Below, in pieces: positions 388 to 11,319 of a stretch of DNA of 64,000 nucleotides (its first letter is position 1; each line of letters opens with the position of its first letter). The position numbers and the translations under genes are program-made. The notes beneath the pieces are model-generated. The model did not search any database and was not told where the DNA came from. It saw only the letters and a list, made by a program, of their open reading frames with translations. This DNA is from Chloroflexota bacterium (lineage in GTDB: Bacteria > Chloroflexota > Anaerolineae > Anaerolineales > Villigracilaceae), in the NCBI GenBank assembly GCA_019873735.1, contig JAIOAQ010000010.1, positions 16,607 through 80,606 on the forward strand, read 5' to 3'.

Positions 388-852
388 CTAGTCCAGCAAT
401 TCTTTGGGAATGTTGCCGCCGTTTTCGGCAATCTTTTTCAAGACGGTCTTGTGAAGCCAGGTATTCATCTTGGCCGAGTCGCTCATCAGTTCCTCGGGGC
501 AGCCGAGTTCTTTGGCCAACTCGTTTCGGGCTTCGCGGCTGCTATCCAGGCCAAGCAGTTTGAGCAAGTCCACGATGGAGACTTTCCAGTCCAGGCCAGA
601 GCCAGCGGCAAGGGTCTCCAGTTTCTTGACCACGTCCACTTCTGAGATCGGCTCAACGGCGGGAGCGGCAGGTTTGGATGTTATTTTGGCGTCCGGCTCA
701 ATCTCTACAGGTGCGGAGGTTGAGGCGGGTTTGGCGGGGATGAACGTGCCCGTGATTGGTTTTGGAGGGACCGGCGCGGCGGGTGGAGGGGCGGGCGCTT
801 CTTTTTTCTTGCCAAGACCAAGTTTATCCAGAATGGCAGAGAAAAGGCTCAT
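388..852 (-). CDS. DUF3597 domain protein
   Basis: A 154-residue protein. It starts MSLFSAILDKLGLGKKKE, has a Pro/Ala-rich linker (about residues 19-65), and ends in a conserved helical domain with WKVSIVDLLKLLGLDSS, KELGCPEELMSDSAKMN and WLHKTVLKKIAENGGNIP. That is the DUF3597 signature. The family has no established function; the N-terminal segment is amphipathic and the C-terminal domain is a small helical fold. A clear ribosome site (AAAGGAG) precedes the ATG. It lies downstream of the suf operon on the same strand, 115 bases past the Rieske gene, but nothing shows a link to Fe-S metabolism. Confidence 0.85.
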   Translation of the reverse strand: MSLFSAILDKLGLGKKKEAPAPPPAAPVPPKPITGTFIPAKPASTSAPVEIEPDAKITSKPAAPAVEPISEVDVVKKLETLAAGSGLDWKVSIVDLLKLLGLDSSREARNELAKELGCPEELMSDSAKMNTWLHKTVLKKIAENGGNIPKELLD

Positions 853-3016: not shown

Positions 3017-3322
3017 TTAATAATCCGGAATTTCTTTGGTCCCGCTTTTCTTGGCCGAGCCGGCAGGGCGCAAATGCTCAGAGTTGGATGGATACCACAG
3101 AATCCGGTCTGGCACCATCCAGCCATCGGTTAGAAAAACGTTGGAGCGAAATTGCACCGCGACCATCTTGGCATCTACCTGGACAACAATACCTTTAATC
3201 CAGCCGCGCACGCGTTCACTGCCTTTTTCATGGTCGCAGAATACCTCTACTTTGTCGCCCACCTCGAATTCGTGTTCCGGGGCCGGGCGGCGCATATAGG
3301 TAATTTTTTGTTCTATTGCCAT
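3017..3322 (-). CDS. Uncharacterised small protein inside the suf operon
   Basis: 101 residues, no signal peptide or membrane segment. The core is beta-rich: EFEVGDKVEVFCDHEKG, VRGWIKGIVVQVDAKMVAVQF and then TDGWMVPDRILWYP. The 'VGDKVEV...RGWIKGIVVQVD...MVAVQF' pattern resembles small SH3/KOW/Tudor-like barrels. The tail is basic (SAKKSGTKE). I do not recognise a named family. It sits between sufD and sufS, almost touching sufS, which argues for a role tied to Fe-S assembly or simple co-expression. A good ribosome site (GGAGG) precedes the ATG. Confidence 0.8.
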   Translation of the reverse strand: MAIEQKITYMRRPAPEHEFEVGDKVEVFCDHEKGSERVRGWIKGIVVQVDAKMVAVQFRSNVFLTDGWMVPDRILWYPSNSEHLRPAGSAKKSGTKEIPDY

Positions 3323-3448: not shown

Positions 3449-4789
3449 TTATTCTTCCACTGTTTTGATATAAATTGCCCGTTGGAAGCGTTCGCGCACG
3501 CCCTCAAACGGAATGCGCTGCATGATTGGGTCAAAGAAGCCTTCAACAATCAGCCGTTCTGCATCTTTGGGCGGGATGCCGCGCGAAAGCAGGTAGAAGA
3601 GCGGCTCCTGCTCAATTTTACTGACGGTTGCGCCGTGTGTACAGCGCACATCGTCGGCGCAGATTTCCAGGCCGGGGATGCTGTCGGCGCGTGCCTGGTC
3701 GCTCAAGACCAGGTTGCGGTTGGCCTGATAGCCGTCGGTTTTTTGAGCGCCGGGGGCAACATAAATCATCCCCTGCCAAACGGAGCGACTTTTTCCCTTG
3801 AGAGCGCCTTTGAAGAGCAGGTCGCTGGTTGTATGCGGAGCAAGGTGGTTTTGCTGGGTGTCATGATCCAGGTGCTGATTGCCGTCGGCAAAGTAAAAGC
3901 CAGACATGCGCCCGCTGGCACCTTCGCCCACCAGGTCAAGTTCGGAGAAGTTTTTGGTCAGTCGGGAGCCGACTGCGCCAAAGATCCAATCCAGGCTGCC
4001 GCCGCGTTCGACGCGGGCACGTTCATGGCTGAAATTCCAGACGTGTCTGCCCCAGGATTGCAATTCCACGAAGTGTAGTTGGGCGTCTTCACCAACGTGA
4101 ATCTCAACGAGGCCGGCGTGCATGGCGTTACCTGTCTCGTCAGGAGAGGCGGCTTCGTGGACATACGTTACCGAGGCGCCCGCTTCCAACCAGACGATGA
4201 GGTGCGAGATGTGCCCCAGGCTTGTTCCTGGCCCCCAGAGAATGCTGTGCAGGGGTTGCTCAACGGTCACGTTTTGGGGGACGTAGAGAAGGACGCCGTT
4301 TTGTGAGAAGGCTGAAGCCAGGGCTGCAAATTTGCCTTCCTCCGGGCGGACGATCTGCCCGGCCAGGCGGTTGAGCAGTTCGGGATATTCGCGCTCGGCG
4401 GTCTGCAAGTCGGTGAAGATCACGCCCTGTTGGGCGAGAGCAGGATCGAGGTCGAGCCGTGCCCCGCCGGGGAGCAGGACAATCTGTCCGCCGTGCTGCT
4501 TGGCGGTGAGCGGTTTGAGCAGTTCGTCAGGGACAGGCGCCAGGTCGCGGTACGTTTCGGGGGCTGGCAGGCGGAAGTCTGCCGCCGGCAGAGCGCGCAA
4601 ATCGGTGCGCCGCCAGGCTTCGTCGGTGGGTGCAGGCATTGGCAGACGGGAAAAGGTCTCAAACGCGCGGCGGCGGAACTCGGTCAGAGCGCCGCCGGAC
4701 GGAAGCATGTCGGCCGTGAAAGCAAAATTTTGGGCAACAGAGACGCCCGGCCGAGTGCGTGAAATTGTGATTTTGGGTTTTTCCTGCAT
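3449..4789 (-). CDS. sufD: SufD, scaffold subunit of the SufBCD complex
   Basis: About 446 residues from the ATG at 4789; an in-frame TTG lies five codons upstream but has no better ribosome site. SufD pairs with SufB on the SufC ATPase dimer to build Fe-S clusters. The SufBD core beta-helix region is recognisable through CADDVRCTHGATVSKIEQEPLFY and LLSRGIPPKDAERLIVEGFF, the conserved C-terminal stretch with a histidine in 'CTHGAT'. The N-terminal helical region contains TDEAWRRTDLRALP, the 'WRxTD' motif common in SufD. No intein is present here, in contrast to sufB. It lies 66 bases after sufB. Confidence 0.94.
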   Translation of the reverse strand: MQEKPKITISRTRPGVSVAQNFAFTADMLPSGGALTEFRRRAFETFSRLPMPAPTDEAWRRTDLRALPAADFRLPAPETYRDLAPVPDELLKPLTAKQHGGQIVLLPGGARLDLDPALAQQGVIFTDLQTAEREYPELLNRLAGQIVRPEEGKFAALASAFSQNGVLLYVPQNVTVEQPLHSILWGPGTSLGHISHLIVWLEAGASVTYVHEAASPDETGNAMHAGLVEIHVGEDAQLHFVELQSWGRHVWNFSHERARVERGGSLDWIFGAVGSRLTKNFSELDLVGEGASGRMSGFYFADGNQHLDHDTQQNHLAPHTTSDLLFKGALKGKSRSVWQGMIYVAPGAQKTDGYQANRNLVLSDQARADSIPGLEICADDVRCTHGATVSKIEQEPLFYLLSRGIPPKDAERLIVEGFFDPIMQRIPFEGVRERFQRAIYIKTVEE

Positions 4790-4855
4790 GTGTGTCCGTT
4801 TCAAGGTTTAACAGGTTTGAGTGTTGGAAGGTGTGGTTGCCAAACGGCCAGCATA

Positions 4856-8077: not shown

Positions 8078-8854
8078 TCAGACAGCAATTCCATTTTCGT
8101 ATTTCTCGCGTATCCAGTCGTACCCATGTTCTTCAAGATGCAATGCCAAATCTGGTCCGCCCGATTCAACAATCCGGCCGCCCAGCATAATATGGACGAC
8201 ATGGGGCTTGATATAGTTCAACAGGCGTTGATAGTGCGTAATGACCAGGACGCCCAGATCCGGCCCGGCAAGCGCGTTTACGCCATCGGCAACGATTCTC
8301 AGGGCATCAATGTCCAGGCCAGAGTCGGTCTCGTCCAGGATGGCGATCTCGGGTTTTAAGGTTGCCATTTGGAGAATCTCGGCGCGTTTTTTCTCGCCGC
8401 CTGAGAAACCATCATTCAAGTAGCGACCGGCAAAAGCCGGATCCATTTTCAGCATTTCCATATGCCCTTTGAGCAACTTGCGAAATTCGGGGACGGGAAT
8501 GCCCTTATCTTCAGGATTTTCGGCTCTGCGGCGGGCATTAAGTGCTGTGCGTAAGAAATTGGCGACTGTCACCCCCGGAATGGCTACCGGATATTGGAAA
8601 GCGAGGAAGATTCCCAGCCGCGAACGTTCGTCTGGCTCCAACTCAAGGATGTTTTGACCCTTGAAGATAACCTCGCCTTGCGTTACTTCATATGCGGGGT
8701 GCCCCATCAAGGTATAAGCCAGGGTGGATTTGCCGGTGCCGTTGGGCCCCATGATGGCATGAATTTCACCTTGCTTGATGGTGAGCGATACACCTTTGAG
8801 AATTTCCTTGTCTGCAATATTGACGTGCAGATTCTTGATTTCAAGTTGAGACAT
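8078..8854 (-). CDS. sufC: SufC ATPase of the SufBCD complex
   Basis: 258-residue ABC-type ATPase that drives conformational change of SufBD. Walker A is GPNGTGKST (36-44), the ABC signature is FSGGEKKR (150-157) and Walker B is [11 protein letters not shown] (171-181), with the Suf-typical SGLDIDAL continuation and H-loop in VITHYQRLL. It has no membrane partner and is the first gene of the operon, directly downstream of the regulated promoter near 8.96 kb. Confidence 0.97.
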
Positions 8855-8952: not shown

Positions 8953-8981
8953 ATTATAGCAAAGAGGACGAGATTTGTCAA
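8953..8981 (-). promoter_or_regulatory. suf operon promoter
   Basis: Read on the minus strand: TTGACA (8981-8976), 17-base spacer, TATAAT (8958-8953). Both hexamers are perfect sigma-70 consensus. It lies about 100 bases upstream of the sufC start, leaving a roughly 95-base leader. Confidence 0.9.
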
Positions 8982-8993
8982 TATTTATGATAA
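8975..8993 (-). promoter_or_regulatory. Putative SufR operator at the suf promoter
   Basis: The 19-mer TTATCATAAATATTGACAA (minus strand) is an imperfect inverted repeat, TTRTCA-N7-TGAYAA, that overlaps the -35 box. The identical 19 bases occur at the same place in the sufR promoter (10280-10298). Binding by SufR is inferred from this sharing. Confidence 0.75.
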
Positions 8994-9032
8994 TTTTCTA
9001 GTAAATTCCCTCTTTGTGAAAGGGGCATGCCT

Positions 9033-10118
9033 TTACAAGCCGCCTACTGGATTCCCTTGCTCGTCGTAAATCGGCAGGCTGTCTATGTCGCCGTTTAGGA
9101 TTTCAACAAATTCGGCCGCAACCCAGGCGCGCCCGTTGGGAGCCGATGCAAACTGGATCAGATACCAGTCTCCTTTTTGCGTGCGGCCTAGAATGACCAC
9201 CTGCGTTTGCGGCTTGAGAACGCCAATAGCCTGGCTGTTTTGATCAGGGGCCAGGCGTACATTAAGCAAGATGACGGTTTTCCCTGTGGGGCCAGATGGA
9301 AGTGTCCCTGGCAGCGGGATGACCGGCGCGGGTGTGCCGCTGTTTTCGTCGGCGACGGGTGTCCCTAGCAGGTTGTATATTGGCAGGCTGCCAGGATTGC
9401 CCTCCAGCGTGAGCACATTGGCCGAAACCCAGCCGCGATGATCAGGGCCGGAGGGATAGTCAATTTGCAGCCAGGAGTTGTTCTTGAGCCGGCCCGTGAG
9501 GGTGACAACACTGCCCGGCGGTAAAATGCCAATGCTGATAAAACCGGTTCCCGGTCCGACGCGCACATTGGTGACGTAATTGACGGTGGCAGTTAATGCC
9601 CCGGCCGGGGGTAGGTTTAGGGGGAGCGGTGTGCCGGTTATTTCGTATAGGAGCGGCGGCAGTACCTGTGGCGTAAGTCCGCTATCCGCGCCGACAACGA
9701 TTGCCAGATAGCCCATTTCCCCTTTAAGTTCTATGCTTTTTGCTGTCACCCAGGCTGTCCCGCTGGGAGCCGGGGTGTAGACGATCCAAAGCCAACTGGC
9801 GTCTTCGTTGCGGCCAATGACCTGTACGGTTTCGTTGGGGAAAAGGCCGCCGATGCGCTCCCCAAGGTTTTTGTTGGGCAGGGTACGCACATTGGTCGCG
9901 AGGCGTACAATGCCGGTGATGGGCTGCGGGGTTAGCGGCCCGCTTGCGGTAGGGCTGGGTGTGACAATGACTTGTGTTTCTGTAAAGGGGATAACGGTAT
10001 CTGTTAGCGTGGGCGGCGGTGGTGTAGGGCTGGCAGTGGGGGTTGGGCTGGGAGAGGTTTTACAACCAGCCAGCAGGATTAGTGTGAGCAGGAAAAGGAT
10101 GCAGGTTTGTCTTAACAT
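9033..10118 (-). CDS. Lipoprotein with three bacterial SH3 repeats
   Basis: 361 residues. The signal peptide ends in a lipobox (LLAGC, Cys19), followed by a Thr/Pro/Ser linker of about 50 residues. Three SH3_3-like repeats follow, each with an 'NVR-P..' strand, a 'G-L-P...V-V-I-GR' core and a 'W-I...G-AWV' end: about 70-130 (ATNVRTLPNKNLG), 160-220 (VTNVRVGPGTGFIS) and 275-340 (LLNVRLAPDQNSQ). Each repeat is followed by a phrase of the form GxLxSLPIY/GYLAIV. Such proteins bind cell-envelope components; no enzyme domain is present. It is convergent to nothing and lies upstream of sufC, divergent from sufR. Confidence 0.88.
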   Translation of the reverse strand: MLRQTCILFLLTLILLAGCKTSPSPTPTASPTPPPPTLTDTVIPFTETQVIVTPSPTASGPLTPQPITGIVRLATNVRTLPNKNLGERIGGLFPNETVQVIGRNEDASWLWIVYTPAPSGTAWVTAKSIELKGEMGYLAIVVGADSGLTPQVLPPLLYEITGTPLPLNLPPAGALTATVNYVTNVRVGPGTGFISIGILPPGSVVTLTGRLKNNSWLQIDYPSGPDHRGWVSANVLTLEGNPGSLPIYNLLGTPVADENSGTPAPVIPLPGTLPSGPTGKTVILLNVRLAPDQNSQAIGVLKPQTQVVILGRTQKGDWYLIQFASAPNGRAWVAAEFVEILNGDIDSLPIYDEQGNPVGGL

Positions 10119-10279
10119 ATGACTCTTCTCAACTATTGTCTCTCTGCGTGTTACTTCTCAGCGGCAAAATGACCTCTTTGTACCCCGGAGATTGCCCGGC
10201 GGGCAATGAGATTTGACGCTTCATCACTAATTTTACTGGAAAATTGAGCCAAGAGGACATTTGTTTATATAATAGATAT

Positions 10280-10298
10280 TTATCATAAATATTGACAA
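10280..10298 (+). promoter_or_regulatory. Putative SufR operator at the sufR promoter
   Basis: TTATCATAAATATTGACAA, identical over all 19 bases to the site at the suf operon promoter, again overlapping the -35 hexamer. This fits autoregulation by SufR. Confidence 0.75.
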
Positions 10299-10320
10299 GT
10301 CATGAACTTGTGGGTATACT
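10292..10320 (+). promoter_or_regulatory. sufR-sufT promoter
   Basis: TTGACA (10292-10297), 17-base spacer, TATACT (10315-10320). Transcription should begin near 10327, so an in-frame ATG at 10302 lies inside the promoter and cannot be the start of sufR. Confidence 0.9.
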
Positions 10321-10349: not shown

Positions 10350-10985
10350 ATGAAAGCCACCCGCGAACGCATTTTACAAACGCTGCTGCGTCAGCCGCGC
10401 ACGACAATTAACGAGTTGGCCGAGGCCGTGGGCATTAATCCTATCTCGGTGCGTCATCATTTGACCAATTTGCAGATCGAGGGCCTGGTTGCGGCCGAAG
10501 AGGAACGGCACGGAGTGGGAAGGCCGCGCCTGGTATATTTTCTGACCGAGGCCGGCCTTGAACGGTTCCCAACCCGTTACCTGCGCCTGACGACGCGCCT
10601 GCTATCCCAACTGAAAGAGAAATTGCCCCAGCCTGTGGTCGGGCAGATATTCTCGGATGTCGCACAGGATTTGGCGTCCAAGCATTCACAGCAGATGGAA
10701 GGCTTGAATCTGGAGCAGCGCCTGGAGGCGGCGCGTAATGTGCTGGCAGAAGAAGGTTTTGTCATTGAATGGGAAAAAAAGGGGGATGAGTACCACATCC
10801 ATGAAATCAGTTGCCCCTATCTTCAGGTTGGGCAAAGCCACCCAGAAGTCTGTATGGTGGACCAGACCCTGATTTCGAATATGCTGGCGGTGCCGGCAGA
10901 AAAGGTACGCTGTATTTTGGACGGAGATGCTTTATGCACGTTTATTGTTCAGGCCGCTAAGGAGAAAACCGATGAGCGAGGCTGA
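10350..10985 (+). CDS. sufR: SufR-type Fe-S-sensing repressor
   Basis: 211 residues from the ATG at 10350, chosen because it follows a GGTGAG ribosome site and lies downstream of the promoter. A winged helix-turn-helix is at the N-terminus (RERILQTLLRQPRTTINELAEAVG, then ISVRHHLTNLQIEGLV and GRPRLVYFLTEAG). The C-terminal sensor domain has cysteines in SCPYLQVGQSHPEVC (C-x12-C), VRC and ALC. SufR holds an Fe-S cluster through such cysteines and represses suf genes when clusters are sufficient. Here the spacing of the last two cysteines differs from the cyanobacterial C-x12-C-x13-C-x14-C. It overlaps sufT by 14 bases. Confidence 0.9.
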   Translation: MKATRERILQTLLRQPRTTINELAEAVGINPISVRHHLTNLQIEGLVAAEEERHGVGRPRLVYFLTEAGLERFPTRYLRLTTRLLSQLKEKLPQPVVGQIFSDVAQDLASKHSQQMEGLNLEQRLEAARNVLAEEGFVIEWEKKGDEYHIHEISCPYLQVGQSHPEVCMVDQTLISNMLAVPAEKVRCILDGDALCTFIVQAAKEKTDERG

Positions 10986-11319
10986 GAAGAACGAAATCAG
11001 GTGGTTGATACATGATACTCATCCAGAATTGGTCCAGCCGCTGCGGGAGAGTCTATCGCAGGTGGTAGACCCGGAAATTGGCATGAACGTGATTCAATTG
11101 GGCCTGATTCGTCAGGTAGAAATGCGGGACGATGTTTTGCATCTCAAAATGATTTTGACGACGCCGTTTTGCCCTTACGGGCCGGCGATTATCGAATTGA
11201 CAAAGGAAAAAGCCCAGCAGGCGGTCAACCATCCGGTACTGATTGAAATCGGTGCAGAGCCGTGGGATTTTTCGATGCTTGAGGATCCATCTGCTTTTGA
11301 TTGGGGAATGTACGCTTGA
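10972..11319 (+). CDS. sufT: SufT/MIP18-family (DUF59) Fe-S maturation protein
   Basis: 115 residues from the ATG at 10972 (MSEAEKNEIRW), which has a ribosome site AAGGAG and overlaps the sufR stop. The DUF59 core shows LSQVVDPEIGMNVIQLGLI, the conserved 'DPE' motif, and LTTPFCPYGPAI with the conserved cysteine. SufT-like proteins help deliver Fe-S clusters to target proteins. Pairing with sufR supports the same job. The extension after the DUF59 core (EPWDFSMLEDPSAFDWGMYA) is also seen in some metal-sulfur cluster assembly factors. Confidence 0.9.
   Translation: MSEAEKNEIRWLIHDTHPELVQPLRESLSQVVDPEIGMNVIQLGLIRQVEMRDDVLHLKMILTTPFCPYGPAIIELTKEKAQQAVNHPVLIEIGAEPWDFSMLEDPSAFDWGMYA

Follow-up and report, generated by a model that had tools for sequence, protein, structure and literature searches.

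A 28-bp dyad joined to the -35 boxes of sufC and sufR as a candidate operator of a SufR-like repressor in one order of Chloroflexota

The SufR of Synechocystis (sll0088) pairs an N-terminal DNA-binding domain with C-terminal cysteines, and the cyanobacterial sufR gene stands divergent from sufBCDS, its product repressing both the suf genes and itself (PMC8593673, PMC13421787, PMC6034842). It acts at two sites of unequal affinity (PMC6034842). In the published SufR systems, the cluster-loaded protein binds and represses, and loss of the cluster releases it (PMC8593673, PMC13421787). Among actinobacteria, SufR represses suf in Streptomyces avermitilis, in Mycobacterium (Rv1460, with cysteines at 203, 216 and 244; PMC6034842) and in Corynebacterium glutamicum, and the Streptomyces avermitilis site, CAAC-N6-GTTG, overlaps the -10 box (PMC11995493). 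Repression of suf in Myxococcus xanthus falls to RisR, a protein of the Rrf2 family that acts at an imperfect palindrome near the promoter, Tt/gGAC-N7-GTCCt/a (PMC9973013).

The locus described here lies in the window, a 64,000-nucleotide stretch of DNA from a Chloroflexota bacterium. Its suf genes follow one another on the minus strand in the order sufC-sufB-sufD-(small protein)-sufS-sufU-Rieske ferredoxin, and sufR is placed beside and divergent from them, as it is not in some other genomes, where it lies elsewhere. A 19-bp sequence repeated at the sufC and sufR promoters is, very probably, one half of a 28-bp operator that abuts both -35 boxes, where SufR, binding as a symmetric repressor, would silence sufR and the suf operon at once. 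The features concerned are the following.

8980..9007, minus strand: candidate operator copy at sufC, 28-bp dyad AATTTACTAGAAAATTATCATAAATATT; 16 of 18 dyad positions, p 0.005; also matches the search pattern given below
10266..10293, plus strand: candidate operator copy at sufR, 28-bp dyad TATATAATAGATATTTATCATAAATATT; 17 of 18 dyad positions, p 0.005
8976..8981, minus strand: sufC -35 hexamer, TTGACA, overlapping the operator end by 2 bp
8953..8958, minus strand: sufC -10 hexamer, TATAAT; spacer 17
10292..10297, plus strand: sufR -35 hexamer, TTGACA
10315..10320, plus strand: sufR -10 hexamer, TATACT; spacer 17
10350..10985, plus strand: sufR, winged-helix regulator with C-terminal C-X12-C-X27-C; TIGR02702 below its cut-off, cysteines aligned
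10972..11319, plus strand: sufT-like DUF59 gene; PF01883 above its cut-off, TIGR02945 below
8078..8854, minus strand: sufC; TIGR01978, 365.7 bits
4856..8053, minus strand: sufB with two intein-like insertions; TIGR01980, intein and Hint models
3449..4804, minus strand: sufD; TIGR01981
1785..3011, minus strand: sufS; TIGR01979
1340..1735, minus strand: sufU; TIGR01994
9033..10118, minus strand: SH3-domain, lipoprotein-like gene (ORF) between the operator copies; PF08239

The start of sufR was taken as the ATG at 10350, since the start of the open reading frame at 10302 lies upstream of the -10 box. The sufT-like gene overlaps the end of sufR, and the two likely share one transcript. The SH3-domain gene is not part of the switch. 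The insertions in SufB match Hint, LAGLIDADG and intein splicing models, and SufB would need two splicing events. Between sufD and sufS lies a gene for a 101-aa protein (3017-3322, minus strand) that has a weak, below-cut-off Agenet match and matches no NCBIfam model; a DUF3597 protein (388-852, minus strand) is encoded after the suf operon.

The regulator itself resembles cyanobacterial SufR in its winged-helix, DNA-binding N-terminus, its C-terminal cysteines and the divergence of its gene from suf. PF13412 and PF01022 both exceed their cut-offs, marking an N-terminal winged helix-turn-helix. The cyanobacterial SufR model TIGR02702 (SufR_cyano) matches residues 3-199 of 210 with 91.5 bits (E 5.7e-26) against a cut-off of 178.8; a repeat search gave 91.1 bits and placed one of 14 control genomes above the cut-off. 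The protein is a SufR-like relative outside the cyanobacterial equivalog. All 42 aligned SufR proteins carry C-X12-C-X27-C, with an extra cysteine between these in 36, and the spacing X12/X27 equals that of Rv1460. A sequence search of the PDB with SufR returned two weak matches, covering the winged helix only, and among the 120 matches listed of 5821 SufR relatives (E<=1e-10) there was no usable cyanobacterial comparator.

The DNA sites of the two systems differ. The cyanobacterial box is CAAC-N6-GTTG, whereas here an AT-rich dyad of 28 bp is joined to the -35 boxes, and often one shared site takes the place of the two unequal sites described in cyanobacteria. That the site differs from the published box, as the preliminary description had stated, is borne out: CAAC-N6-GTTG occurs in 0 of 79 sufC and 0 of 66 sufR upstream regions (about 0.3 expected by chance per set), and a relaxed form in one of the 66 (genome G182). 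RisR, for its part, is like this regulator in controlling suf from a palindrome near the promoter and unlike it in being an Rrf2-type protein with another box. Literature on SufR and suf, with most subscription papers and the regulon databases lying outside its coverage, yielded no operator of the present kind.

The preliminary description had drawn attention to an identical 19-mer, TTATCATAAATATTGACAA, and this observation held: it occurs at 8975-8993 (minus strand) and 10280-10298 (plus strand) with zero mismatches, each copy covering TTGACA and each followed 17 bp downstream by a -10 box, TATAAT at sufC and TATACT at sufR. The window holds no further match at up to three mismatches, nor did 100 shuffles of it, and the rest of the 3.06-Mb assembly adds a single match, with three mismatches. 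The 19-mer was taken at that time for the operator itself, a palindrome TTRTCA-N7-TGAYAA centred over the -35 box. That an operator is shared by sufC and sufR has stood; that its unit is 19 bp has not, because relatives conserve a 28-bp dyad. Orthologous upstream regions mostly agree: where SufR is present, the dyad reaches p<=0.02 in 53 of 65 sufC and 58 of 65 sufR upstream regions, and the exact 19-mer is rare, being found in two of 81 at sufC (the window and G028) and one of 68 at sufR.

The identity of the 19-mer at two promoters and the pairing of five of six arm positions would speak for a 19-bp palindromic operator, which we nevertheless regard as highly improbable. The TGAC arm coincides with the -35 hexamer and has no mirror image on the promoterless side, where positions -27 to -30 reach no more than 0.42 bits. 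Further, TATCA is typical of sufC only, the sufR sites of relatives reading TATCT. The full pattern occurs in three of 81 sufC upstream regions (the window, G028 and G038) and two of 68 at sufR, the window's included; the G038 occurrence sits in a site shared by the two genes, the G028 sufC region carries the exact 19-mer, and in a smaller set of 45 loci the window's own copies were the only ones. The 19-mer comprises the promoter-proximal half of the 28-bp operator (14 bp), the remainder of TTGACA and one A, with the dyad axis falling at its far end. Its identity at the two promoters thus follows from the sharing of both the operator half and the -35 box.

The conserved unit among relatives is the 28-bp dyad AATAT-N4-GATA-N2-TATC-N4-ATATT, whose half-site is AATAT-N4-GATA. 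A first set of 61 genomes, in which 59 had a SufR match at E<=0.001 (the window's included, and some with a distant paralog only), supplied 54 sufR and 58 sufC upstream regions for reading. Promoters of the window's own family, f1, were aligned on the -35 box (33 for sufR, the window excluded, and 32 for sufC, with three promoters shifted by one base set aside). Conservation in f1 runs from -26 into the -35 hexamer around the axis GATAT|TTATC, and positions -27 to -36 do not exceed 0.12 bits for sufR or 0.42 bits for sufC. The consensus in sufR orientation is AATATTTATGATATTTATCTANNATATT, symmetric at its borders and core, and the sufC site is the sequence of the sufR site on the opposite strand. 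In G061 and G102 the sufR site is a near-perfect inverted repeat, ATATTTAAGATAAATATCTTAAATAT. Nearly all sufR promoters in the family have TATACT as their -10 box. For dyad scoring, the last 300 bp of each upstream region were used, regions shorter than 100 bp (G047, G053) were dropped and the threshold was p<=0.02.

Strong sites are nearly confined to the two promoters. The pattern ATTTATGATAWWTWTCTANNATATTGAC, at up to three mismatches, gave 58 matches in 39 of the 61 genomes, as against none for its reversed control in the same genomes. Of these, 57 fall no more than 330 bp ahead of sufR or sufC; for the remaining one, in G021, the contig ends 22 bases away. The sequence itself shows the dyad with its borders, the constant position of the dyad relative to the -35 box, this near-confinement and, as described below, the lack of detection at sufC in SufR-less genomes outside f1. 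A stretch so rich in A+T and immediately upstream of a -35 box might instead serve RNA polymerase as a UP-type element and owe its conservation to promoter strength alone. We hold this to be very unlikely, given the fixed G and C identities, the dyad symmetry, the sharp borders, the position over the -10 box in sod promoters and the failure to detect the dyad in SufR-less lineages outside f1, the last two of which are described below.

The dyad also tracks the presence of SufR. Among 220 genomes sampled from the order, 204 have a SufR match at E<=1e-22. Nineteen genomes were without a strong match, namely the remaining 16 of the 220 together with G005, G021 and G031; some of the SufR-less genomes (G050, G105) have weak paralogs. 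Their sufC was found in 13 of the 19, the exceptions being G223, G049, G105, G130, G021 and G031. A further 13 SufR-carrying genomes were picked as relatives of SufR-less ones, and G058 was kept out of both groups. The dyad at sufC reached p<=0.02 in 53 of 65 genomes with SufR and in three of 13 without (Fisher 8.6e-5, kinship ignored), and outside f1 in 20 of 31 and none of 10, respectively (Fisher 4.8e-4, kinship ignored), values that overstate the link, related genomes being non-independent.

The dyad was not detected at the sufC genes of SufR-less members of genus g55 and families f10 and f15; in g55, which is SufR-less, none of six sufC upstream regions had a significant dyad, and a seventh genome, G130, gave no sufC. 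Six SufR-carrying genomes of genus g48 have the dyad at sufR (6/6) and half of them at sufC (3/6), and SufR-less G135 of the same genus has a degenerate stretch only. In G058, with a best SufR match 29% identical, a variant dyad stands at sufC (p 0.02) and at the gene for that match (p 0.035). The three SufR-less assemblies of f1 (G005, G181, G183) speak against the link, all of them retaining the dyad at sufC; assembly gaps are a possible reason for the missing SufR there. Twelve of the 65 SufR-carrying genomes miss the threshold at sufC: by eye, the site is shifted, spaced more widely or just beyond 300 bp in G003, G056, G061 and G102, whereas G051, G143 and genus g63 have a weak site or none, and G040 scores only 12 of 18, which likewise counts against the link.

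A symmetric form of the pattern, at up to two mismatches, matched in 40 of the 61 genomes (its control in two) and added 11 places away from suf, sorted by eye. Seven of these were read, with genes named from their translations: three superoxide dismutase (sod) genes, two rhodanese-like sulfurtransferase genes in two families, one metE and one hydrolase-like open reading frame, G029:C267, G001:C205, G025:C24 and G008:C1:1345507 being left out. The sod association extends further, 11 of 30 scored upstream regions passing p<=0.02 where about 0.6 would be expected; 41 genomes have a sod match, and the window's own genome has none at E<=1e-40. By eye, the site begins on the -10 box of a TTGAC promoter at nine sod genes (G006, G028, G017, G027, G004, G013, G033, G007 and G005), and in G018 it stands ahead of the -35 box, as at sufC. 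The sod dyads include those at 2505-2532 of locus L141, 2544-2571 of L142 and 2478-2505 of L144, together with loci L148-L177. The match at the sod of G040 lacks the core and is likely due to chance; the site at the start of the hydrolase-like frame in G031 was likewise taken for chance. The dyads at the two sulfurtransferase genes lie at 2494-2521 of L145 and 2480-2507 of L146; two of 16 sulfurtransferase upstream regions pass p<=0.02, and the link of this gene to the dyad is weak. About 108 bp ahead of the metE-like gene in G027 there is a dyad with one mismatch (L143, 2555-2582).

The sod and sulfurtransferase sites of some relatives would suit another iron or redox regulator, whether of the Fur/PerR or the Rrf2/IscR type, and the GATA/TATC cores may resemble Fur-type boxes. 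The binder could also be a second SufR-like protein, weaker in its match (about 25-33% identity, for example G000:C34), that the window genome and many of its relatives encode. RisR offers a precedent, an Rrf2 protein that represses suf from a different box (PMC9973013). We nonetheless think a binder other than SufR unlikely: few strong sites occur away from sufC and sufR, as fits a local autoregulator, the dyad goes undetected without SufR in g55, f10 and f15, and a variant site accompanies the diverged SufR of G058. SufR remains the likely binder. Repression seems to us more plausible than activation, given promoters close to consensus and a site that meets the -35 box at suf and overlies the -10 box at sod.

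In 22 of the 66 genomes with long enough upstream regions for both genes, sufC and sufR diverge from one single site. Seven of the 22 belong to f1 and 15 to other families, and they include G037 and G051, where the dyad score is not significant; G046, with an overlapping, negative gap from a misplaced promoter, was left out. Between the facing -35 hexamers lie 24 bp in 16 of the 22 and 26-27 bp in six. Outside f1, the commonest layout is a lone operator that ends in a -35 box on either side. In the remaining genomes, the sites are separate, on different contigs or unrecognised, and the window genome has two copies about 1.26 kb apart that flank the SH3-domain gene. The shared single operator may be the older state, split into two later. 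In G044, sufC and sufR have two identical 28-bp copies, oriented alike and separated by 1.3 kb (L065, 220-247 and 1543-1570), such as a recent duplication would leave.

The operator copy at the window's sufR appears to be turned around. The f1 operators (34 of sufR and 35 of sufC, three one-base-shifted sufC sites realigned) were each scored against sufR-type and sufC-type matrices with the operator's own genome left out; the sufR matrix was built without the window's sufR site. The sufC-type matrix gave the better score for all 35 sufC sites, the window's own with 48.5 bits against 7.2, and the sufR-type matrix for 33 of 34 sufR sites. The sole exception is the sufR site of the window (12.3 bits sufR-type, 32.5 sufC-type), which on the evidence of this one assembly would be inverted relative to those of 33 f1 members. 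A misassembly, or a series of point changes in place of a real flip, seems improbable to us. It would account for a flip seen in only one f1 genome and for the innermost bases, which bear no sign of one, yet leave-one-out scoring puts the flipped type 20 bits ahead, the site agrees with the sufR consensus at 25 of 28 positions when flipped and at 19 of 28 as it lies, and the usual sufR -10 box, TATACT, is retained. We keep to a flip in place. Outside f1, the pattern match of G043 also has the opposite orientation, within a shared site. A site so nearly symmetric would be expected to function either way round.

We propose that SufR is the protein that binds the dyad and that, when bound, it would keep RNA polymerase off the -35 box. 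As in the published SufR systems, loss of the Fe-S cluster would release SufR, and expression of suf, sufR and sufT would then rise when clusters are scarce. Across a shared operator, one bound repressor could close two divergent promoters at once. In the broader reading, which we consider probable, a SufR-like repressor of this Chloroflexota order commands suf, sufR-sufT and, in some relatives, sod as a distinctive stress regulon, through one 28-bp dyad unlike the published box; the ancestral form would be a lone operator with -35 boxes built into both ends, split in many lineages and flipped in place at the window's sufR.

A SufR-like regulator with a different operator can be traced through one order of Chloroflexota, including lineages in which neither was found, and the joint change of regulator and site can be studied there directly. 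On this reading, a single Fe-S sensor would govern iron-sulfur assembly and, in some lineages, the defence against superoxide as well. Where the operator is shared, with its -35 boxes built in, it would represent a very compact bidirectional switch.
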